This document shows positions 2,947 through 59,113 of a DNA stretch of 64,000 nt, piece by piece; within the stretch, counting starts at the first letter, position 1, and each line of letters begins with the position of its first letter. Below the pieces are notes generated by a model. It had not been told where the DNA came from. It saw only the letters and a program-made list of their open reading frames with translations, and did no database searches. This DNA is from Flammeovirgaceae bacterium (GTDB taxonomy: Bacteria; Bacteroidota; Bacteroidia; Cytophagales; Cyclobacteriaceae). Both the position numbers and the translations under genes were made by a program. Where the stretch lies: positions 2,789,225 to 2,853,224 of the forward strand of contig CP054185.1 in assembly GCA_015180985.1 (NCBI GenBank), written 5' to 3'.

Positions 2947-4002
2947 TTATTTACAATAACTTAAACGCAACTTTCTGCTTTCATTCCGAGTGATTGATTC
3001 CTTAACCGCTTTACAAGCTTCAGCCTCATTACCGGCAAGCCAATACGCTTCGGCCAGGTATGAAAAGACATCATCTACAAACGGGTCCATATCAGCAGCC
3101 TGCTTAAGCAGCCGTATTGCGGCTTCTGCATCGTTTATTTTCAGGTAATAAATCCCCTTGTTACGATAAGCCCACGCGTTGGCCGGACCGTTGGCAATAC
3201 TTTGGTTAATATCTTCAACAGCAGCCTGTAATTCACCCTTCATCAGGTTAATGTAGCCGCGGTTATTAAGATAATATGAATCTCCGGGTTTCAGAAGCAA
3301 TGCCTGGGCGATGAACTTTTCAGCGTTTACTAAGTCTGATTGGGCAGCATAAACCAACGCCAGCGCATTATAGGCGTTGGATTCATCGGCATTAATGATT
3401 AACGCTTCCTGAAGTGCCCATCTGGCGCTGTCGTACTGGCGGGCATAAAAGTGCACCGTACCCAGGTTTATCCATAGTTCCGTGTTTTTTGAATCCAGCA
3501 CAAGGGCTCTTCTGAACGAAGCCTTCGCCCGGTTATACTCGCGCATTTTGGTGTGAATCAACCCTTGCAAAAAGTAAACGGGCATCGAATCAGGCTTAAG
3601 CTCTGCCAGCCGGCTAACATCCTGCAATGCTTTATCAGCAAAATTTAACTCATAATACGTGTTCGCCCTGTTAAATAAACTGTTTATGAAGTCGGGCATA
3701 CACCCCAGGGCGCGGTTATAGTATTCCAATGCTTCAGCATAATTCTTTTGCCTGAACTGTACCGTACCCAGGTTATTCAGCGCATCGGCATAACACGAAT
3801 CGAACTCCAGGGCTGCGTTGAAATTTTTTACGGCCGATTCAAAGTCTTGTTTAAGCAAGGCCTCATTGCCGATTAGAAGAAATCGTTGTTTGCGTGTTTG
3901 GTCTGACTCACAGGCCGAAGCAACCCCAAGTACCCCCAAGATAACAGGTGTGTACAGCTTAGAAGCCCAGCGGATTTTTAATATAAAATTCTTTACTTGC
4001 AT
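2947..4002 (-). CDS. TPR-repeat lipoprotein
   Basis: A 351-residue protein built of tandem tetratricopeptide repeats, presumably a protein-interaction scaffold attached to a membrane by lipid. The start is taken at 4002 (MQVKNFILKIRW) because it places a lipobox Cys (GVASAC) at residue 31 after a hydrophobic stretch; an upstream in-frame ATG at 4062 lies inside the neighbouring gene and would add 20 residues before the signal. Repeats run from about residue 40 to 340, with typical A.NNLG/Y.RALGC.P patterns such as DALNNLGTVQFRQKNYAEAL and ELWINLGTVHFYARQYDSA. The gene is divergent from a DUF3592 gene with only 9 nt between start codons. No enzymatic domain is visible and the partner is unknown. 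Confidence 0.85.
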   Translation of the reverse strand: MQVKNFILKIRWASKLYTPVILGVLGVASACESDQTRKQRFLLIGNEALLKQDFESAVKNFNAALEFDSCYADALNNLGTVQFRQKNYAEALEYYNRALGCMPDFINSLFNRANTYYELNFADKALQDVSRLAELKPDSMPVYFLQGLIHTKMREYNRAKASFRRALVLDSKNTELWINLGTVHFYARQYDSARWALQEALIINADESNAYNALALVYAAQSDLVNAEKFIAQALLLKPGDSYYLNNRGYINLMKGELQAAVEDINQSIANGPANAWAYRNKGIYYLKINDAEAAIRLLKQAADMDPFVDDVFSYLAEAYWLAGNEAEACKAVKESITRNESRKLRLSYCK

Positions 4003-4011
4003 TGGCACGTT

Positions 4012-4638
4012 ATGGCTATTAACCCGGAATACGAAAACGAAGTAAGGCTGCTCCTGAAACAAAATAAACGTTTCGAGGCCGTTCGCTATTTACAAAACAC
4101 ACTTAACGTTTCAAACACCGATGCCGACCGGCTGGTTCAGGCTGTAGAAAATGAAATTGCACTGGAAAAGCAACAGGTATTAAACCCTGCTGCTGAAACG
4201 GCAAAAGGCTGCGGCAGTATGGTTATAAAGGTTATCAGTTTCGGGTTTGGCTTTTTCGGTGTAGTGTTTATACTGATTGGCATTGGTGCCTACCTGCTGT
4301 TTAACTATATCGAGGCTGATGCCGTAGAAGTTCAGGGCCACGTGGTTGACCTGCGTCCCAGCCCGAACGGAGGCGATGGCTTCGCACCCGTTATTGAATA
4401 CGAATGGAACGGCCAGACCAAAACCCATCAAAGCGAAGTGTACTCCTCCCCTCCCGATTTTGAAACCGGGCAAATGGTGCCGGTTTATGTTAACCCGTCA
4501 AACCCGGATATTGTTACGATTATCTATGAGGAAACAGGCTGGATATTCATTTCAGTTTTTGGAGGCATCGGGGCCGTCTTTATCGTAATCGCCATTGTAT
4601 TATTCCGGTTTGGAAAGAAAATGAACCGCCCGCTTTGA
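4012..4638 (+). CDS. DUF3592-type membrane protein
   Basis: A 208-residue protein of unknown function. Residues 1-60 are a charged helical region (LLLKQNKRFEAVRYLQNTL) that resembles a small ribosome-like or UBA-like helical pair. Two hydrophobic segments (about 66-95 and 178-202) flank an extracytoplasmic beta domain with the pattern APVIEYEWNGQTKTH...GQMVPVYVNPSNPD, which is the recognisable DUF3592 signature (a small beta-sandwich between two TM helices). ATG at 4012 is chosen over the TTG at 3997, because the TTG would overlap the start of the divergent TPR gene. The gene stops 35 nt before the his leader ATG, so his transcription starts right behind or inside its end. Confidence 0.8.
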   Translation: MAINPEYENEVRLLLKQNKRFEAVRYLQNTLNVSNTDADRLVQAVENEIALEKQQVLNPAAETAKGCGSMVIKVISFGFGFFGVVFILIGIGAYLLFNYIEADAVEVQGHVVDLRPSPNGGDGFAPVIEYEWNGQTKTHQSEVYSSPPDFETGQMVPVYVNPSNPDIVTIIYEETGWIFISVFGGIGAVFIVIAIVLFRFGKKMNRPL

Positions 4639-4664
4639 AAATTGATACGTGTTTTGTTGCTTTG
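4634..4664 (+). promoter_or_regulatory. Candidate promoter of the his operon
   Basis: TTTG at 4634-4637 and TTGCTTTG at 4657-4664 are separated by 19 nt, matching the Bacteroidota -33 TTTG / -7 TAnnTTTG arrangement with one mismatch (T for A). The predicted transcription start near 4671 would put the leader-peptide ATG (4673) at or next to the 5' end of the mRNA. The -33 box overlaps the stop of the DUF3592 gene. Confidence 0.5.
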
Positions 4665-4672
4665 GCCCTGCA

Positions 4673-4750
4673 ATGAGTTACCGGAATAACATAAACAATC
4701 ATCACCACCACCATGTTAACACCATGTTGCGTGGCAGGTTTATGTTTTAA
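4673..4750 (+). CDS. hisL: His-operon leader peptide with five consecutive His codons
   Basis: A 25-codon reading frame starts ATG AGT TAC CGG (4673) and ends TAA at 4748-4750. Codons at 4700-4714 are CAT CAC CAC CAC CAT, five histidines in a row, flanked by several Asn codons. It lies just upstream of a terminator hairpin (4773-4805) and 89 nt before hisG. In enterobacteria a His-rich leader of this kind controls the his operon by ribosome stalling; the same arrangement is inferred here. No strong Shine-Dalgarno sequence is visible, which is usual in this phylum, and the ATG is very close to the inferred transcription start. Confidence 0.8.
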   Translation: MSYRNNINNHHHHHVNTMLRGRFMF

Positions 4751-4810
4751 CTGAACTATAAAGACTTTACTTAAAGGCTTGCCGCGATAACGGCAGGCCT
4801 TTTTTGTTTT
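4731..4810 (+). promoter_or_regulatory. His attenuator: terminator hairpin with competing antiterminator
   Basis: Terminator: AAAGGCTTGCCG (4773-4784), loop CGATAA, CGGCAGGCCTTT (4791-4802), then a T-rich run to 4810; the stem has one G-T pair. Antiterminator: GTGGCAGG (4731-4738), at the end of the leader coding sequence, can pair with CTTGCCGC (4778-4785), the ascending arm of the terminator, over 8 bp allowing G-U pairs. The two structures exclude each other. A ribosome held at the His codons (4700-4714) would leave 4731-4738 free and favour read-through; a ribosome that reaches the stop at 4748-4750 would cover that arm and favour termination. Confidence 0.75.
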
Positions 4811-4839
4811 ATACCCGATAACAAATTACTCTAATTTAC

Positions 4840-5697
4840 ATGAACGAAACAGTACGGATTGCCATTCAGAAATCAGGACGGCTGCAGGAAGGATCCCTGA
4901 AACTGCTTAAAGACTGCGGCCTGAGCATCAGCAACGGCAAAGACCAACTCAAAACGCAGGCATCCAATTTTCCTGTTGAAGTACTTTTTCTGCGCGATGA
5001 TGACATACCCCAATACATTGAAGACGGGGTGGCCGATGCCGGAATAATTGGCGAAAATATATTCGCTGAAAAACAGAAAAACGGAGCAATCATTAAGCGA
5101 CTCGATTTCGCGAAATGCCGCCTGGCCCTGGCTGTTCCCCGCACAACCGACTACCCGGGTTTAGCATGGTTTAACGGCAAAAACATCGCTACCTCGTACC
5201 CGAACATCGTCAGCAACTACCTGAAAAGGAATACCATTACTGCAGGTATTCATGAGATCAGCGGCTCAGTTGAAATTGCCCCGGGCATTGGTTTGGCAGA
5301 TGCCATCTGTGATATCGTGAGCACAGGCAGCACCTTGCTCAGTAACGGACTTAAAGAAGTTGAAGTGGTTATGCAGTCGGAAGCTGTTTTGATTGGCGGA
5401 AATCTTAGCACAACAAAAAAGCAAATCCTTGACAAACTGGTGTTCCGCATCGAAGCTGTACAGCAGGCCCGAAACAACAAATACATTCTGCTAAACTGCC
5501 CAAACGAAGCCATTGAACCCATTACCCGAATTATACCGGGTATGAAAAGCCCCACTATCCTGCCGCTGGGCAAACCCGGCTGGAGTTCACTGCACTCAGT
5601 GGTAAACGAAAATGACTTTTGGGAAAAAATCGATCGGCTAAAACATTTGGGTGCCGAGGGAATTTTAGTAGTACCGATTGAGAAGATGATTAAGTAG
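4840..5697 (+). CDS. hisG: ATP phosphoribosyltransferase, long form
   Basis: First enzyme of histidine biosynthesis: ATP + PRPP to phosphoribosyl-ATP, in the cytosol. At 285 residues it is the long form, with the catalytic domain in about the first 205 residues (RIAIQKSGRLQEGS at the start, DDDIPQYIEDGVADAGIIG, and ISGSVEIAPGIGLADAICDIVSTG with the PRPP-binding region) and a C-terminal ACT-like regulatory domain (MKSPTILPLGKPGWSSLHSVV). The long form is feedback-inhibited by histidine and does not need HisZ, and no hisZ is seen. It is the first structural gene behind the attenuator. A 143-nt spacer with a period-7 repeat separates it from hisD, the only long gap in the operon. Confidence 0.97.
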   Translation: MNETVRIAIQKSGRLQEGSLKLLKDCGLSISNGKDQLKTQASNFPVEVLFLRDDDIPQYIEDGVADAGIIGENIFAEKQKNGAIIKRLDFAKCRLALAVPRTTDYPGLAWFNGKNIATSYPNIVSNYLKRNTITAGIHEISGSVEIAPGIGLADAICDIVSTGSTLLSNGLKEVEVVMQSEAVLIGGNLSTTKKQILDKLVFRIEAVQQARNNKYILLNCPNEAIEPITRIIPGMKSPTILPLGKPGWSSLHSVVNENDFWEKIDRLKHLGAEGILVVPIEKMIK

Positions 5698-5741
5698 ACA
5701 TTAGTAAGAAGACGCAAGACTTAAGACCTATGAATGCAGGT

Positions 5742-5826
5742 AACTAAGAACCAAGAACTTTGAACTAAGAACTAAGAACCCAAGAACTAAGAACTAAGAA
5801 CTAAGAACCAAGAACCAAGAACCAAC
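5742..5826 (+). repeat. Period-7 tandem array between hisG and hisD
   Basis: Twelve consecutive units of mostly 7 nt: AACTAAG (six copies), AACCAAG (three), AACTTTG, one 8-nt unit AACCCAAG (5777-5784) and a last AACCAAC (5820-5826). The array ends 14 nt before the hisD start. It is free of stops in one frame on the minus strand but no gene is likely there. Its role is unknown; it may be slippage-generated filler or a dispersed repeat, since units of the same kind recur at 23665-23692. Confidence 0.85.
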
Positions 5827-5840
5827 AGCACACAAACCCA

Positions 5841-7142
5841 ATGAAACTTTATATCAATCCCTCCCGCGACACCTGGCCGCAACTGTGCGAACGCCCGCAA
5901 TTGCAGCTGGAGTTCCTGGAGAGTTCGGTAAGAAATATTCTGGCCAGAGTTAAACAGAGTGGCGATTACGCTCTTAAAGAATTTACCCGCCAGTTTGATA
6001 ACCTGGAACTGGAGAACCTTATCGTAACCAAAGCCGAAATACAAAAGGCTGCTACCCTGGTTGAACCCGCACTAAAGACTGCTGTACAAACTGCTGCATC
6101 GAATGTTAAAAAATTTCATCAGGCACAACTGCCATTGGCAATTCAAGTAGAAACAATGCCGGGTGTAACCTGCTGGCGCAAAAGCGTACCGATTGAAAAA
6201 GTTGGTATTTATATACCCGGAGGAACTGCCCCGTTATTTTCAACCGTACTCATGCTGACAATTCCGGCTGCGCTGGCGGGCTGCCACGAAATAGTGCTGG
6301 TTACTCCTCCTGATAAACAGGGCCTAATCCACCCGGCCATCCTGTACGCTGCACAACTAACGGGTGTAAAAAAAATTTATAAAGTCGGGGGCGCACAAGC
6401 CATTGCTGCCCTCGCTTACGGCACGGAAACCATTCCGAAAGTGAACAAAATTTTCGGGCCCGGTAACCAGTATGTAACCAAAGCCAAGCAACTGGTTAAC
6501 CAGGAGGGAACGGCAATTGATTTGCCGGCCGGGCCCAGCGAATTGCTGGTATGGGCCGATGACTCGGCAATACCTGAATTTGTTGCTGCCGACCTCCTGT
6601 CGCAAGCCGAACATGGTACCGACAGTCAGGTGATGCTGGTTACCAACAAATCAATACTTGCCGAAAAAGTTTTCGATGAGATAGACCGCCAAGTTGCGCT
6701 ATTACCCCGGATGGAAATTGCCGGGCTTGCCCTGCAAAACAGTCGGGCACTTGTTTTTGGTAACGATAATGAGGCATTGGATTTTATAAATACCTATGCA
6801 CCCGAACATCTGATTATTAACAAAAGACAGGCGGATGAACTGGCAGAAAAAATCACCAATGCCGGTTCGGTGTTTATCGGCAACTACACGCCCGAAGCAG
6901 CCGGTGATTATGCCTCAGGAACAAATCACACGCTGCCGACCAATGGATTTGCTACTACGTATGGCGGTGTCTCAGTTGAAAGTTTTTTAAAGCACATCAC
7001 CTTTCAGAAAATCTCAGAAGAGGGTATCCGGCAGGTTGGTCCGGCAGTTGAAGTGATGGCACAGGCTGAAGAATTAATTGCGCACAAAAATGCGATCACC
7101 ATCAGGCTTAACTACCTGTCAACCCGAAAACAGAATCCATAA
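5841..7142 (+). CDS. hisD: Histidinol dehydrogenase
   Basis: Last enzyme of the pathway: two NAD-dependent oxidations of L-histidinol to L-histidine, zinc-dependent. The 433-residue length is normal. Visible family motifs are VPIEKVGIYIPGGTAPLFST, KVGGAQAIAALAYGTETIP, KIFGPGNQYVTKAKQLV, DLPAGPSELLVWADD, LLSQAEHGTDSQ (with the Gln/His zinc ligands) and YAPEHLII; the C-terminal GTNHTLPTNG region is also intact. ATG at 5841 follows the repeat array by 14 nt. The stop at 7142 is followed after one base by hisC. Confidence 0.97.
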   Translation: MKLYINPSRDTWPQLCERPQLQLEFLESSVRNILARVKQSGDYALKEFTRQFDNLELENLIVTKAEIQKAATLVEPALKTAVQTAASNVKKFHQAQLPLAIQVETMPGVTCWRKSVPIEKVGIYIPGGTAPLFSTVLMLTIPAALAGCHEIVLVTPPDKQGLIHPAILYAAQLTGVKKIYKVGGAQAIAALAYGTETIPKVNKIFGPGNQYVTKAKQLVNQEGTAIDLPAGPSELLVWADDSAIPEFVAADLLSQAEHGTDSQVMLVTNKSILAEKVFDEIDRQVALLPRMEIAGLALQNSRALVFGNDNEALDFINTYAPEHLIINKRQADELAEKITNAGSVFIGNYTPEAAGDYASGTNHTLPTNGFATTYGGVSVESFLKHITFQKISEEGIRQVGPAVEVMAQAEELIAHKNAITIRLNYLSTRKQNP

Positions 7143-7143
7143 C

Positions 7144-8172
7144 ATGGACATACAATCGCTACTCAGAGAAAATATAAGAGCACTAACGCCCTATTCAACT
7201 GCAAGAGATGAATACAAGGGAACAGCCGAAGTGTACCTGGATGCCAATGAAAACCCTTTCCCTTCCGGTTACAACCGGTACCCCGATCCACATCAGCAAA
7301 AACTAAAAGAAAAAATCAGTACCCTAAAAAATATGCCGGTAAAAAATATTTTTCTGGGTAACGGCAGCGATGAAGTTATTGACTTGATTATTCGTGCATT
7401 CTGTGAACCAGCAGCCGATTCCATACTCATCACCGAACCAACGTACGGCATGTATGCCGTTTGTGCTAACATTAATAATGTACCGGTTAAGCGGGCCCTA
7501 CTGAGTTCCGGTTTCGATTTGGATTTGCAGGCTATAAACAAAAGGCTGGATAAATCGGTAAAAATTATTTTTCTGTGTTCCCCCAACAATCCATCGGGTA
7601 ACCTGCTGAACAAAGAAAAAGTAAGAAGCCTGATTACCAGCTTTGCCGGCATTGTGGTGATTGATGAGGCCTATATCGACTTTGCAAACGATGCAGGTTT
7701 TTTACCGGTTTTGGATAACCATGCTAACCTCATCATTCTGCAAACATTTTCAAAAGCATGGGGTTTAGCGGGCCTCAGAATGGGCATGGCATTCGCTTCC
7801 GAAGAAATAGTTTCGGTGCTGAATAAAATAAAGTTCCCATACAACATTAATACCCTAACCCAGCAAACAGTTATGGAAAAACTTTCCTCGGATGAAAATA
7901 AAAAACGGCAGGTAGAAATAGTTATAACTGAGCGTAACAAACTATCCCGGCAGCTGGCCGGTATACCGGGTGTAACTAAAATATTCCCCTCCGATGCCAA
8001 CTTTATCCTGGTACGATTTAACAATGCTGCCCATGCGTATAATCAATTGTTAAAGCAAAAGATTATTGTACGCGATCGCTCGTCCTTAACATTATGCGAA
8101 GGTTGTTTACGGATAACCGTAGGCACACCTGAAGAGAATACTAAACTTATCGAAACACTGAAAACGTTATGA
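7144..8172 (+). CDS. hisC: Histidinol-phosphate aminotransferase
   Basis: PLP-dependent fold-type I aminotransferase of 342 residues that makes L-histidinol phosphate from imidazole-acetol phosphate and glutamate. Motifs: YLDANENPF and YNRYPDPHQ near the N-terminus, [42 protein letters not shown], and [14 protein letters not shown] with the PLP-binding Lys204. ATG at 7144 is preferred: an upstream alternative start at 7078 would lie inside hisD. The stop TGA overlaps the hisB start (ATGA, 8169-8172), implying translational coupling. Confidence 0.97.
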
Positions 8173-9284
8173 AACGGGTATTGTTTATTGACCGGGATGG
8201 AACCCTTATCATCGAACCAGCAGACGAACAAATCGACAGCCTGGAAAAACTGGAATTTTATCCGGGCGTTATCCAATGGCTGGGCCGTATTGCCAGCAAA
8301 ACGGATTTCGAACTGGTGATTGTAACCAACCAGGATGGATTGGGTACCGCCAGGTTCCCTGAAGAATCATTCTGGCCGGCTCATACCAAAATGCTTAAAA
8401 CTTTTGAAGGAGAGGGTATCCGGTTTTCAAACGTATTTATTGATCGATCATTTGCACACGAAAACAAGCCCACCCGAAAGCCGGGTACTGCCATGCTTAC
8501 CGAATACATTACCGGAAATTATGACTTAGCCAACTCGTATGTTATTGGCGACCGGCTTACGGATGTGGAACTTGCTTATAATCTCGGCTGCAAATCAATC
8601 CTTATAAACGATGGCCGGCTTACAGAAAAATTAAGTGAAAAGCCTTACGCGTACGTAAATCAGCTAAGTACAACCAGTTGGAAAGAAGTGTATGAATGGC
8701 TCTCAAAACCCATGCGTGAAGCAACAAGTACCCGAAAAACCAATGAAACCGAAATAACTATCTCGCTTAATCTTGATGGAAGCGGAAAGTCGTTTATCCA
8801 TACCGGCATTGGCTTTTTCGATCACATGCTGGATCAATTGGCAAAACATGGAAATATGGATTTGCAAATTCAGGTTCAGGGCGACCTGCATGTAGATGAA
8901 CACCATACCATTGAAGACACCGCCCTTTTACTGGGCGAAACTTTTTATAAAGCACTGGGCACCAAGCTTGGTATTGAACGATACGGGTTTGTGTTGCCGA
9001 TGGACGATTGTCTGGCGCAGGTAGCGGTTGACTTTGGCGGAAGACCCTGGTTGGTTTGGGAGGCAGAATTCAAGCGCGAGAAAATCGGTGAAATGCCAAC
9101 TGAAATGTTTTACCACTTTTTTAAATCATTCTCCGATACGGCACGGTGTAACCTGAATATTAAAGCTGAAGGAACAAACGAGCACCATAAAATTGAAGCC
9201 ATCTTCAAAGCCTTTGCCCGGGCCCTGCGCATGGCAGTGAAACGAAGCGGAAATGAATTACCAACTACCAAAGGAACGTTGTAA
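8169..9284 (+). CDS. hisB: Bifunctional histidinol-phosphatase / imidazoleglycerol-phosphate dehydratase
   Basis: A 371-residue fusion carrying two steps of histidine synthesis. Residues 1-165 are a HAD phosphatase (FIDRDGTLI with Asp8 and Asp10, [31 protein letters not shown]). Residues from about 177 to the end are the dehydratase ([70 protein letters not shown]) with the His/Glu manganese ligands present. The phosphatase part lacks the zinc-loop cysteines known from E. coli HisB: the equivalent segment reads [15 protein letters not shown]. Start overlaps the hisC stop by 4 nt. Confidence 0.96.
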
Positions 9285-9290
9285 CATCAA

Positions 9291-9878
9291 ATGAAAACAG
9301 CCATTATAAAATATAACGCAGGCAACATTCAATCAGTAGCTTACGCACTGGAACGGCTTGGGGCCAGCTTTATTATAACTGATATCCCTGAAGAAATTGC
9401 ATCGGCTGACAATGTAATTTTCCCCGGTGTAGGCCAGGCACAAACCACAATGGCGTATTTACGAAAGCAGAACCTGGATAAACTAATCCGTAAACTTAAT
9501 CAACCCGTATTAGGCATTTGCCTCGGCATGCAACTACTATGTGGTTTCTCCGAAGAAGGAAACACCCCATGCCTCGGAATATTTGATGAGACCGTAAAAC
9601 GTTTTGCGCCCGATGCGCAACATAAAGTTCCGCACATGGGCTGGAATCAGGTGGAGTTCAAAACTAATGGAATAGGGCTATTCATGCAGCCGGCTAACTT
9701 CTATTTTGTTCATAGCTATTATGTTCCTGTAAACAAATACACCATCGCCCAATGTCATTACGGAGAACCCTTCAGCGCCATGATGCGAAAGGACAATTTT
9801 CTGGCGGTGCAGTTCCATCCGGAAAAATCAGGTCAAGCCGGTGAACATGTTTTACGCTATTTTCTACAATCGTTTTAG
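9291..9878 (+). CDS. hisH: Imidazole glycerol phosphate synthase, glutaminase subunit
   Basis: Class I glutamine amidotransferase subunit (195 residues) that hydrolyses glutamine and channels ammonia to HisF. The N-terminus IIKYNAGNIQSVAYALERLG, the oxyanion/nucleophile motif LGICLGMQLL with Cys77, HMGWNQVEF, FVHSYYV and the C-terminal VQFHPEKSG supplying the catalytic His and Glu are all present. Start is 6 nt after hisB and the stop is 8 nt before hisA. HisF, its partner, lies two genes on. Confidence 0.96.
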   Translation: MKTAIIKYNAGNIQSVAYALERLGASFIITDIPEEIASADNVIFPGVGQAQTTMAYLRKQNLDKLIRKLNQPVLGICLGMQLLCGFSEEGNTPCLGIFDETVKRFAPDAQHKVPHMGWNQVEFKTNGIGLFMQPANFYFVHSYYVPVNKYTIAQCHYGEPFSAMMRKDNFLAVQFHPEKSGQAGEHVLRYFLQSF

Positions 9879-9886
9879 TTGTACCT

Positions 9887-10609
9887 ATGAAAATGAAAAT
9901 CATACCAGCAATTGATATCATCAATGGAAAATGTGTCCGCCTTGTTCAGGGCAACTTTGGCAAAGTAACGGTGTACAGCAAAGATCCTGTTAAAGTTGCC
10001 CGCCAGTTCGAAGAAGACGGATTTGAATTCCTGCACCTGGTTGACCTTGACGGTGCCCGGCTGGGCGGTGTAACAAACTGGAAGGTAATTGAAAAAATTG
10101 CGGAGAACACGGCCTTAAAAACCGATTTTGGCGGTGGTGTAAAAACCGATGAAGAGATTGAGCGGCTACTGGGTTTAGGCATTGACTACATTAATGCAGG
10201 CAGCCTGGCTGTTCAGCAACCTGACACGTTTAATGCGTGGCTGAAGAAATACGGCTCAGATAACTTTATCCTTAGCGCAGATGTACAGCATGAAATGGTA
10301 AAAATTTCAGGATGGCAGAAGGAGGCCGGTATTTCGGTCTTTGATCTGATCAGGAAATTCAAGGCTGTACGGCACGTAACCTGCACCGACATCAGCACCG
10401 ATGGCATGTTAAACGGACCGAACATTACACTCTATAAAAAGCTGAAAATAAAATTCCCGAACCTGGGCATCATCGCCAGCGGTGGAATAAGTACTGCTGA
10501 TGATGTGGAGGAACTGAATTACCTTAAACTGGAGGGTATTATTATCGGAAAAGCGCTTTACGAAAAAACAATTTCAGCCGAAGAATTAAAAAACAGAAAC
10601 CTGTTGTAA
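9887..10609 (+). CDS. hisA: ProFAR isomerase
   Basis: TIM-barrel isomerase (240 residues) that opens the ribose of ProFAR to PRFAR by an Amadori rearrangement. Motifs: IIPAIDIINGKCVRLVQG with the general base Asp (Asp10 from this start, Asp8 if the second ATG at 9893 is used, which matches the usual numbering), LHLVDLDGARLGG, DFGGGVKTDEEIERLLGLG, CTDISTDGMLNGPN with the second catalytic Asp, and IIASGGISTADDVEEL. It is followed directly by hisF with no gap (TAA 10607-10609, ATG 10610). Confidence 0.96.
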   Translation: MKMKIIPAIDIINGKCVRLVQGNFGKVTVYSKDPVKVARQFEEDGFEFLHLVDLDGARLGGVTNWKVIEKIAENTALKTDFGGGVKTDEEIERLLGLGIDYINAGSLAVQQPDTFNAWLKKYGSDNFILSADVQHEMVKISGWQKEAGISVFDLIRKFKAVRHVTCTDISTDGMLNGPNITLYKKLKIKFPNLGIIASGGISTADDVEELNYLKLEGIIIGKALYEKTISAEELKNRNLL

Positions 10610-11365
10610 ATGCTTGGTAAACGCATTATACCATGCCTTGACGTTGCGGGCGGCCGAACCGTTAAAGGCGTCAACTTCAGCAACCTTCGCGATGCAGGCG
10701 ATCCGGTTGAATTGGCCGCCACGTATGCCAGCCAGGGAGCCGATGAACTGGTATTTCTGGATATTTCGGCTACGCTGGAAGAGCGTAAACCGATGACCAC
10801 CTGGGTTAAAGCCGTTGCGCGCCAAATCAACATTCCGTTCACCGTGGGCGGAGGAATTTCGACCCTGAATGATGTTGATGTTCTGCTCAATGCCGGAGCC
10901 GATAAAGTAAGCATCAATTCGGCAGCCGTCCGCAACCCGCACGTGCTCGATGAACTGGCCGGCCATTTTGGCTCTCAGTGTATTGTGCTGGCCATCGATG
11001 CACGCAAAATCCATAATAGCTGGGTAGTCCATACCCATGGCGGCAAAAACCCGACTGACAAAAAGCTTTTCAGTTGGGCAAAAGAAGGCCAGGAGCGCGG
11101 TGCCGGAGAAATTCTGTTTACCAGCATGGACCACGATGGCACAAAAAACGGATTTGCCCTTGACCCACTGGAAAAGCTGCATCACTTGCTTACCATACCC
11201 GTTATCGCTTCGGGTGGAGCAGGCACCATGGGGCACTTTGCCGATGCATTTGCCTTGGCTAAGGCTGATGCTGCATTGGCGGCCAGCATTTTTCATTTTG
11301 GCGAGATTAGCATACCGGAACTGAAAAAATTTTTACACAAACACCATATACCCGTTCGGCTATGA
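10610..11365 (+). CDS. hisF: Imidazole glycerol phosphate synthase, cyclase subunit
   Basis: TIM-barrel cyclase (251 residues) that uses ammonia from HisH to convert PRFAR into imidazole glycerol phosphate and AICAR. Evidence: [19 protein letters not shown] with catalytic Asp11, [41 protein letters not shown] (second catalytic Asp), [19 protein letters not shown] and [13 protein letters not shown]. It abuts hisA and its stop overlaps the hisIE start by 4 nt (11362-11365). A 236-codon open frame on the opposite strand here is a codon-bias shadow. Confidence 0.97.
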
Positions 11366-11949
11366 AACCCGATTTTTCTAAAAACAACGGACTGCTGCCT
11401 TGTATAATTCAGGATTACAGAACGCAAAAAGTGTTAACGTTAGGGTACATGAATGAAGAAGCGTGGTTAAAAACACAAGCTGAACAGCGGGTAACTTTTT
11501 TCAGCCGGTCTAAAAACCGGTTGTGGACGAAAGGTGAAACCTCCGGAAATTTCCTTTATGTGGTTGATATGCTTCCTGATTGTGATAAGGATACGCTGCT
11601 GATTAAGGTGAAACCAGCAGGGCCTGTATGCCATACCGGCACCGATACCTGCTTTGGTGAAACAAATAACGTGTTTAGCCTTGCTACGCTTGAAGAGGTC
11701 ATCCGGTTTCGCAAGGAAAAACCTGAAGGGGCCTCATATACCTCTGCATTATTTCAGGCCGGCATTAATAAAATAGCCCAAAAAGTGGGCGAAGAGGCAG
11801 TTGAATTGGTTATTGAAGCGAAAGATTACAATGATGAAGGATTCCTCAATGAAGCAGCTGATTTACTATACCATTACCTGGTTTTGCTGGCCGCACGCAA
11901 TAAAACACTGGCCGATGTGGAGCAGGTGCTGAAAGACAGGCACCGTTAA
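11362..11949 (+). CDS. hisIE: Bifunctional phosphoribosyl-AMP cyclohydrolase / phosphoribosyl-ATP pyrophosphatase
   Basis: A 195-residue fusion for steps two and three of the pathway. Residues 1-105 are the cyclohydrolase ([53 protein letters not shown] and TDTCF with the zinc cysteines). Residues 110-195 are the helical pyrophosphatase ([29 protein letters not shown]). It is the last gene of the operon; the 79-nt spacer after it shows no obvious terminator hairpin, so read-through into the nitroreductase gene cannot be excluded. Confidence 0.96.
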
Positions 11950-57544: not shown

Positions 57545-59113
57545 ATGAAAAAGATGAAATTTTTAAGCATACTACTTACCCTGCTCTTTGTGTTTGGTTG
57601 TGAGCAGGAAATATTGGTGCAACAAGATCCTGACCCGGATCCGGATCCGACCGGGGAGTCCGGCAGTGCAAACTTTACCAAGTTTGTTTCAATTGGCAAT
57701 TCATTAACGGCCGGTTACATGGCCAGTGCACTGTTTGCATTTGGTCAGCAAAATTCTTACCCGGCTATTATGGCTGAGCACTTTGCCTATGTAAGCGAAA
57801 ACGATCCGTTCGATCAGCCCATGGTTAACTCGGTAAACGGGTGCTTTAATCCATCTGCCGGGTGTACATTGGGCCGGTTGATTTTGTTTGACCCTGACGG
57901 CCCGACCGGACCTTTATCTGCATCGCCAACACCTGCAGGTACAACCGGAGTGCCGGCTCCATATAACACCACCTCAACTGATCACTTATTGGCTTTGGCA
58001 CCGTATGCAGGCAACAAAGACAACCTGAACAACTTCGGTGTTCCGGGCATTATCCTCGCACAAGCACTTACACCGGCAACCGGTGGACCTCCGCCACCGG
58101 CACCGAACCCTGCCTACAACCCGTACTTTGCCCGCTTTGCCAAAACCCCTAGTACGGATGGTTCTACCGGCTCCACAATTATCAGTGATGCATTAGCCAC
58201 CAATCCAACCTTTGTATCTTTCTGGCTTGGAAATAATGATGTACTGGGTTATGCAGTAGGTGGTGCTTCTAATCCATCTATTTTAACCAGTGTGCCAGCC
58301 TTTACAGCCCAGTATTCAGCGGCTATTGATGCCATTCTGGCCCACCCAAACAACGTGAAAATGGTGGTTGGCAACATACCCAATGTTACTACTATTCCGT
58401 ATTTCAGGTTGGTTCCCTATAATCCTGTGGTGATTACTAACCAGGCCCAGATTGATGCGATTAATGCGGGGTATGCTCCCTACAATGCAGGTCTTGAAGC
58501 CGCATTTGGCGGTGGCTTTATTACCGCTGAAGAACGTGATAAGAGAAAAGTTATCTTCTCAGTTGGGCAAAACCCGGTGGTAATTGTTGATGAATCTTTG
58601 ACTAATTTGGGCGGGATGGGATTACCCAGTTACCGGGAAGCTACAGCCCAGGATTTACTGGTTCTTCCTGCTGCTTCGTTTATTGGAACTTTGGTAAGTG
58701 GTGACCCCACGTTGATTAATGGAGTTACTGTGCCACTGGCCGACCAGTGGGTACTGATTCCTTCTGAAATTACGGAAATTACTACCCGCATAAACGACTT
58801 CAATACAGCTATAGCCGCAAAAGTTGCAGCCAACAGCAGCCGCATGGCGCTGGCAGATATATTCACCAAGTTTAATGAGATTGCCACCAGCCCTACCGGT
58901 GGCATTGTAGTGGATGGCTTGTTTATCCGGTCAACCTTGGCTCCCCCGAACGGAGTTTTCTCGGAAGATGGTGTTCACCCCAACCCGCGTGGATCGGCTT
59001 ACATTGCTAAAATCTTTATTCAGGCAATTAATGCCAAGTTCGGTTCAACAGTGCCTGAACCAAACATTTCGAAGTATTTTGGAACCTTCTTCCCGGTAAG
59101 CCCTCCACTTTAA
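57545..59113 (+). CDS. SGNH/GDSL-type surface lipoprotein hydrolase
   Basis: A 522-residue lipoprotein with lipobox LFVFGC (Cys19) and a short Asp-Pro linker (DPDPDPDPTGES). The SGNH motifs are VSIGNSLTAGY (block I Ser), SFWLGNNDVLGYAVG (block III Asn, with Gly earlier) and DGVHPNPRGSAYIA (block V Asp/His). The insert between them (Pro/Thr-rich, residues 110-190) is long, so it is larger than the usual GDSL esterase. It follows the receptor gene by 20 nt and ends before a strong bidirectional terminator. Esterase activity is predicted, substrate unknown. Confidence 0.9.
   Translation: MKKMKFLSILLTLLFVFGCEQEILVQQDPDPDPDPTGESGSANFTKFVSIGNSLTAGYMASALFAFGQQNSYPAIMAEHFAYVSENDPFDQPMVNSVNGCFNPSAGCTLGRLILFDPDGPTGPLSASPTPAGTTGVPAPYNTTSTDHLLALAPYAGNKDNLNNFGVPGIILAQALTPATGGPPPPAPNPAYNPYFARFAKTPSTDGSTGSTIISDALATNPTFVSFWLGNNDVLGYAVGGASNPSILTSVPAFTAQYSAAIDAILAHPNNVKMVVGNIPNVTTIPYFRLVPYNPVVITNQAQIDAINAGYAPYNAGLEAAFGGGFITAEERDKRKVIFSVGQNPVVIVDESLTNLGGMGLPSYREATAQDLLVLPAASFIGTLVSGDPTLINGVTVPLADQWVLIPSEITEITTRINDFNTAIAAKVAANSSRMALADIFTKFNEIATSPTGGIVVDGLFIRSTLAPPNGVFSEDGVHPNPRGSAYIAKIFIQAINAKFGSTVPEPNISKYFGTFFPVSPPL

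Follow-up and report, generated by a model that had tools for sequence, protein, structure and literature searches.

A very likely histidine attenuator before the his operon of a Cyclobacteriaceae-related genome, with a terminator-less counterpart in other Bacteroidota

Described histidine leaders and the locus before hisG

The enterobacterial his attenuator combines a leader peptide containing histidine codons with mutually exclusive RNA helices, and its leader, hisL, has seven His codons in a row. The same logic is also set out in PMC9413887, which describes His attenuators of Firmicutes (Bacillus cereus group, Eubacteriales, and Erysipelotrichales); Firmicutes attenuators are described in PMC2965389 as well. 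Within the phylum of interest here, a 2021 study of Flavobacterium psychrophilum (PMC9723704) reported "strong clues" for leader-peptide attenuation before amino-acid operons, together with a structured element before hisG that is present in other Flavobacteriaceae genera and has no Rfam matches; its section on the hisG element gives no His codons, antiterminator, or start site. A previous sequence-only reading of our locus had placed the bacterial his leader chiefly in Proteobacteria, which holds only in part: the case is less isolated than this suggested, because Firmicutes His attenuators and a Flavobacteriaceae hisG element have been published. A 2010 attenuation survey by Lopatovskaya and others may also include Bacteroidetes. 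In the literature searched, mostly papers available without subscription, we found no detailed Bacteroidota His leader and no terminator-less form, and the word "leader" is absent from the main text of PMC8305728, a study of his genes in this superphylum.

The window (the whole stretch of DNA analyzed, 64,000 nucleotides), whose nearest named relatives are Cyclobacteriaceae, harbors a short His-rich ORF followed by a complete his operon:

4673-4750, plus strand: leader peptide ORF of 25 codons plus stop, read from the sequence; a His-rich ORF is present in 17/17 genus genomes
4700-4714, plus strand: putative regulatory codons, five consecutive His (CAT CAC CAC CAC CAT), from the sequence and relatives
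4840-5697, plus strand: hisG, ATP phosphoribosyltransferase with C-terminal domain, first gene of the operon (TIGR00070, TIGR03455)
5841-11949, plus strand: hisD, hisC, bifunctional hisB, hisH, hisA, hisF, and hisIE (NCBIfam matches above cut-off)

Direct reading confirmed the frame and its five His codons as they had been proposed, with an ATG at 4673, a TAA stop at 4748-4750, and the encoded peptide MSYRNNINNHHHHHVNTMLRGRFMF. Every gene of the operon scored above the cut-off of its NCBIfam model. A same-strand ORF upstream ends at 4638, 34 nt before the leader ATG; the leader stop and hisG are 89 nt apart, with a 12-pair terminator in this gap. Inside the operon, the hisG-hisD gap houses a 7-base tandem array (5742-5825, AACTAAG-like, about 11 copies). 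Runs of five His codons occur three times in the 3.38-Mb genome, a number that is not unusual because the same pattern reversed occurs nine times; the remaining two runs lie within short open frames without an ATG. A scan of the window for short ORFs that have a terminator behind them and a high content of any one of 12 residues yielded the His leader and a Leu-rich match at 58968, the latter of which we take for chance.

Based on these parts and on the modeled RNA folds below, we consider it highly probable that the locus is a ribosome-mediated transcription attenuator that would sense charged tRNA-His and control the his operon. Like hisL (RF00514), it has a His-codon leader ORF and mutually exclusive protector, antiterminator, and terminator helices before hisG; unlike hisL, it has five rather than seven consecutive His codons and a putative near-leaderless start. 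The Firmicutes attenuators (PMC9413887) likewise have a leader peptide, with three to five consecutive His codons, and a terminator and antiterminator before his operons; they belong to another phylum, and the likeness is one of description, not of sequence. With the Flavobacteriaceae element (PMC9723704) the locus shares the gene, the phylum, the suggestion of leader-peptide attenuation, and the lack of an Rfam match. The RF00514 His_leader model and the Rfam T-box model gave no match in the window at gathering score and were not among the 12 Rfam matches to E 10 in 4500-5000, and no Rfam match at gathering score was obtained for 12 related loci. Thr_leader (24.5 bits vs a gathering score of 55), L20_leader, and GlmZ matched over the leader far below their gathering scores, which we take for a general resemblance to hairpins plus a terminator.

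Conservation of the leader and candidate start of its transcript

hisG was located in 51 of 59 relatives and in 122 of 128 family genomes. In all 17 genus genomes examined, including the window's own, hisG is preceded by a short His-rich ORF and a terminator; the His run and the hairpin, whose loss among relatives the sequence-only reading had named as evidence against it, are thus both kept. A strict test was established requiring at least four His within eight residues of a short ORF, with a terminator sought within 75 nt. His leaders were identified by this test at 208 of 279 distinct hisG loci, whereas a single dinucleotide shuffle out of 1395 and a single reverse strand out of 279 passed it; the loci, drawn from three overlapping samples and biased to the window's family, were counted as distinct by their last 200 bases alone. 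The 208 leaders split into 121 with a terminator and 87 without one detected, an automatic classification with some errors, as L128 was counted with a terminator and by eye is terminator-less with a weak false match, and L022, L028, L036, and L265, among several loci scored as lacking a leader, have a His leader by eye. One locus of the genus (L050, genome G014) shows hisG in two overlapping pieces, a frameshift or assembly error, behind a leader that passes the His and terminator test.

The terminator form was found in Chryseosolibacter, Fulvivirga, Chitinophaga, Niastella, Flavihumibacter, Sediminibacterium, Cryomorpha, Maribellus, and a Draconibacterium MAG, among others, and the terminator-less form in Algoriphagus formosus, Marivirga sericea, and Marinigracilibium. 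Forty further phylum loci showed a His-rich leader in several families and none in others. No His leader was found at any of six Dyadobacter loci examined. At Dyadobacter L197, L203, and L210, hisG without a His leader lies close behind another gene, which we take to be histidyl-tRNA synthetase, judging its end by eye. A covariance model of the leader was searched against 12 genomes, with the best 150 first-look candidates scored in each; it gave a single match in the window's own genome, at this locus, full-length matches in seven other genomes, all of the terminator form, and none or partial matches in four genomes without that form. On a FastTree tree of HisG (162 rows, 117 labeled), the two leader forms change 4 times vs 21.3 times when shuffled, and the leader form therefore follows descent.

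Upstream of the leader, two candidate promoter elements were identified:

4635-4637, plus strand: candidate -33 element TTG, overlapping the end of the upstream ORF
4657-4664, plus strand: candidate Bacteroidota -7 box TTGCTTTG, one base off the published consensus TAnnTTTG (PMC7366714, PMC9723704)

The TTG lies 19 nt from the box, and the box 8 nt from the leader ATG. In F. psychrophilum the promoter box sits at -12 to -5 (PMC9723704), and placing the candidate box likewise would put the start at about 4669 with a 5'UTR of about 4 nt, close to the start of about 4671 proposed by the sequence-only reading. This promoter spacing would suit a near-leaderless start of the leader. A scan of 3800-6200 for sigma-70 promoters returned two sites, fewer than in shuffles. 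Over all 208 leaders, a box was found for 141, with a TTG 18-22 nt 5' of it in 100 of the 141 and a predicted 5'UTR shorter than 10 nt in 90.

The locus may also be a classical attenuator whose true start is further upstream, giving the leader an ordinary 5'UTR, which we regard as rather unlikely. Such a start would suit the box of the window, which is off consensus, and the 67 of 208 leaders having no box; leaderless mRNAs are moreover rare in the phylum, with about 3.7% of 5'UTRs under 10 nt in Bacteroides thetaiotaomicron (PMC7366714) and leaderless transcripts making up 5.5% of 890 mRNAs in F. psychrophilum (PMC9723704). However, the gap from box to ATG is 4-13 nt in 14 of 17 genus genomes (13 of 17 under the rule applied to all leaders, by which L018 gives another box), a fitting box being absent or far off in L003, L006, and L007; among the leaders that have a box, 51 of 86 with a terminator and 39 of 55 without one have a predicted 5'UTR below 10 nt. 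In a separate group (f41), the His-rich leaders of L287 and L289 apparently start with GTG 4-5 nt after a TAnnTTTG box; these are possibly leaderless GTG starts, and no terminator was detected in either.

Alternative helices of the leader RNA

The leader RNA can form three helices, for which the following elements were delineated:

4688-4746, plus strand: protector hairpin 1:2 (4688-4696 with 4738-4746; 4705-4715 with 4723-4734)
4730-4741, plus strand: antiterminator 5' strand, region 2, pairing with 4775-4786
4775-4786, plus strand: antiterminator 3' strand, region 3, common to the terminator 5' arm, pairing with 4730-4741
4773-4802, plus strand: intrinsic terminator stem-loop 3:4 of 12 pairs with a T-rich tail to about 4812, from the consensus scan and the alignment

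The protector 1:2, antiterminator 2:3, and terminator 3:4 are mutually exclusive and are kept in the alignment of relatives. The terminator had been proposed at 4773-4810 and was recovered as the stem-loop and T-rich tail above, starting 22 nt 3' of the leader stop codon and conserved in the genus. A consensus terminator scan of 3800-6200 returned this one site; because shuffles average 3.3 sites, the scan alone proves nothing, and the proof lies in the conservation. The antiterminator, previously given as 8 bp between 4731-4738 and 4778-4785, is real and is longer than claimed, extending over 12 pairs (C4730-U4741 with A4775-G4786) with a duplex energy of -19.1 kcal/mol vs -19.7 for the terminator. 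Folding the leader RNA (4671-4839), as the sequence-only reading had suggested, gave a stability beyond that of shuffles (z -4.3, 0 of 200 as good), and both the 2:3 and the 3:4 structures form under opposite constraints in shortened RNA.

Pairing was evaluated in alignment A1, a hand-chosen set of 32 of the 49 leaders with a terminator in the first family sample; the 17 more diverged or doubtful ones were omitted. Standard pairs in A1 amount to 97.9% for the terminator (at most 64.6% when the partners are slid), 89.9% for the antiterminator (at most 54.7%), and 81.7% for the protector (at most 48.2%). The terminator shows clear compensatory change, both partners having been substituted in 6 of 12 pairs. 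Such change is weak for the antiterminator within A1, where the covariation score is 0.169 vs 0.161 +- 0.006 when shuffled (55 of 500 as high) and both-side changes occur in 3 pairs vs 5 in one slid version. The protector beats its slid versions in pairing and covariation score only, its both-side changes (11 and 22, vs up to 12 and 28 slid) being no better.

Better evidence for the antiterminator than covariation within A1 comes from the diverged leaders. For 38 of the 49 terminator leaders, the 17 genus leaders among them, the cognate duplex is equaled by no more than 10 of 200 shuffled region-2 strands, and this extends to leaders of very different sequence (L021, L025, L026, and L044); in 11 of the 49 the antiterminator is not clearly above shuffles. 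Likewise, at most two foreign region-3 strands pair as well in 30 of the 49 loci, again including the 17 of the genus, and more than two foreign terminators pair equally well in 19. Over 46 of the 49 leaders (L019, L127, and L128 dropped), the distance from the last His codon to the antiterminator start has a median of 12 nt and is at least 8 nt in 38, and that from the antiterminator end to the stop codon has a median of 6 nt and is at most 17 nt in 46, a geometry that follows in part from the search itself, which allowed pairing only in the interval from 40 nt upstream to 12 nt downstream of the leader end. This spacing suggests that a ribosome would free the antiterminator strand when at the His codons and cover it when at the stop.

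Constrained folds with assumed ribosome footprints agree with such a switch in shortened RNA. In transcripts truncated at 4788 or 4795, the antiterminator 2:3 reaches 0.82-0.88 when the ribosome sits over the His run; when it sits at the stop codon, 2:3 is at 0.00 and 3:4 at 0.91-0.96 in transcripts truncated at 4795 or 4812. At equilibrium the terminator wins in the full-length RNA in each case, that with a stalled ribosome included (0.96-0.98), and without any ribosome the antiterminator still reaches 0.34 in the transcript truncated at 4788; the switch must therefore be kinetic. Of the features that define an attenuator, the locus thus has a cluster of end-product codons in a short ORF, an intrinsic terminator between this ORF and hisG, and an exclusive antiterminator placed for opposite effects of stalled and finishing ribosomes in the shortened RNA, not at full-length equilibrium.

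From the sequence parts, their conservation, the alternative pairings, and the geometry, which are directly supported, we infer the start site, stalling, termination, and histidine response as follows. Transcription would start a few bases 5' of the leader ATG. When histidine is ample, the ribosome would reach the stop codon at 4748 and cover region 2, leaving region 3 free, so that the 3:4 terminator forms and RNA synthesis stops near 4810. Under a shortage of charged tRNA-His, the ribosome would stall at the His codons (4700-4714) and open the 1:2 hairpin, and region 2 could pair with region 3 before the terminator 3' arm exists, allowing RNA polymerase to continue into hisG. With no translation, the 1:2 hairpin would sequester region 2 and the terminator would form. 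The proposal that the locus follows the logic of the enterobacterial his attenuator is supported by the conserved exclusive helices and the ribosome-compatible spacing.

The role of the His ORF could instead be translational, feeding ribosomes to hisG by reinitiation or coupling or stabilizing the mRNA, with the hairpin as a pausing or processing site. Leader-gene reinitiation has been proposed for several phyla, Bacteroidetes included (PMC4833913), and a His ORF without a detected terminator at 87 of 279 hisG loci fits such a role. However, the 89 nt and 12-pair terminator between leader stop and hisG in the window, and the retention of terminator, antiterminator, and their spacing in relatives, make it quite improbable here. 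The same-strand ORF ending 34 nt before the leader ATG would fit a hairpin that merely terminates the upstream gene, with the His run there by chance. This is scarcely credible, as the His ORF lies between that gene and the hairpin, His ORF and terminator occur together in 17/17 genus genomes and also before hisG in other families, and a single shuffle in 1395 passed the strict His test.

Leaders without a detected terminator

The 87 leaders without a detected terminator differ from the terminator form in several respects. In 83 of them at most 6 residues separate the last His codon from the stop. Measured against shuffles, the folding energy of a 28-nt segment around the stop codon has a mean z of -1.69, with z below -2 in 40 of 87, vs a mean of -0.24 and 8 of 121 for terminator leaders. 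Among terminator-less leaders ending in HHSS or alike, z is below -2 in 31 of 42, and in an earlier overlapping set such ends (49) had a mean z of -2.60 vs -0.73 for others (37); the stop-codon hairpin is therefore typical of a large subset of the terminator-less leaders and not of the class as a whole. For 32 terminator-less leaders, RNAalifold gave no structure other than a 6-bp hairpin at the stop codon. Simply counting stems of at least 5 bp across the stop codon did not separate the classes (66 of 87 without vs 87 of 121 with a terminator), whereas the folding energies against shuffles did. In the stretch that separates the leader from hisG, C outnumbers G in 82 of 85 terminator-less loci vs 26 of 47 regions after terminators (only those of at least 30 nt), which may be a hint of Rho.

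Several further observations were made by eye. L270-L274, five loci from a different family of the class (group f22), seem to have hairpins at the ORF end, and in terminator-less leaders the HHxHH codons are often immediately preceded by a hairpin whose sequence varies. Many of these leaders carry the motif (A)CATATYGCCC a few bases past the stop-codon hairpin (e.g., L087, L091, L098, L116, L120, and L137), and something close to this motif often recurs where the leader ORF begins. Readings of CATATYGCCC as a tRNA-His mimic, or of a hairpin-stabilized pause, were not pressed, as sister clades carry a different C-rich motif at this place.

The closest parallel is tnaC of Escherichia coli, a Rho-dependent leader with its regulatory site near the leader stop, no intrinsic terminator, and C-rich, G-poor RNA downstream; the terminator-less leaders resemble it in the last three respects. 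These features suggest that the terminator-less relatives couple the same sensor to another read-out, for which Rho is the likeliest candidate. In this view, a ribosome halted when only a few codons remain to the stop would block (or allow) a step of termination or decay. Unlike tnaC, which responds to free Trp (PMC8429421), the terminator-less His leaders would be expected to sense uncharged tRNA-His, with Rho in a putative role. Taking both forms together, we tentatively propose, as a possible reading, that Bacteroidota his operons have in common a near-leaderless His leader peptide that is read out in two ways according to descent: through the intrinsic terminator seen in the window or, in a large part of the window's family and in some further families, through a terminator-less form with His near the stop, often a stop-codon hairpin, and C-rich, G-poor RNA, which would most likely act through Rho.

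The attenuator of the window is very likely real; it is a classical His attenuator in a new setting, ordinary in its logic and new for this group. More novel are the terminator-less relatives, and these above all, together with the way in which translation starts, merit bench work. Since attenuation needs a ribosome close behind RNA polymerase, a conserved His attenuator indirectly supports the coupling of transcription and translation in a phylum where Shine-Dalgarno sequences are little used, and the leader offers a ready reporter of this coupling. The putative very short 5'UTR suggests a way for ribosomes to load immediately. The terminator-less relatives offer a natural experiment in which the same sensor is joined to a different output and, if the reading proposed for them is true, they would represent a starvation-sensing, tRNA-driven counterpart of tnaC.
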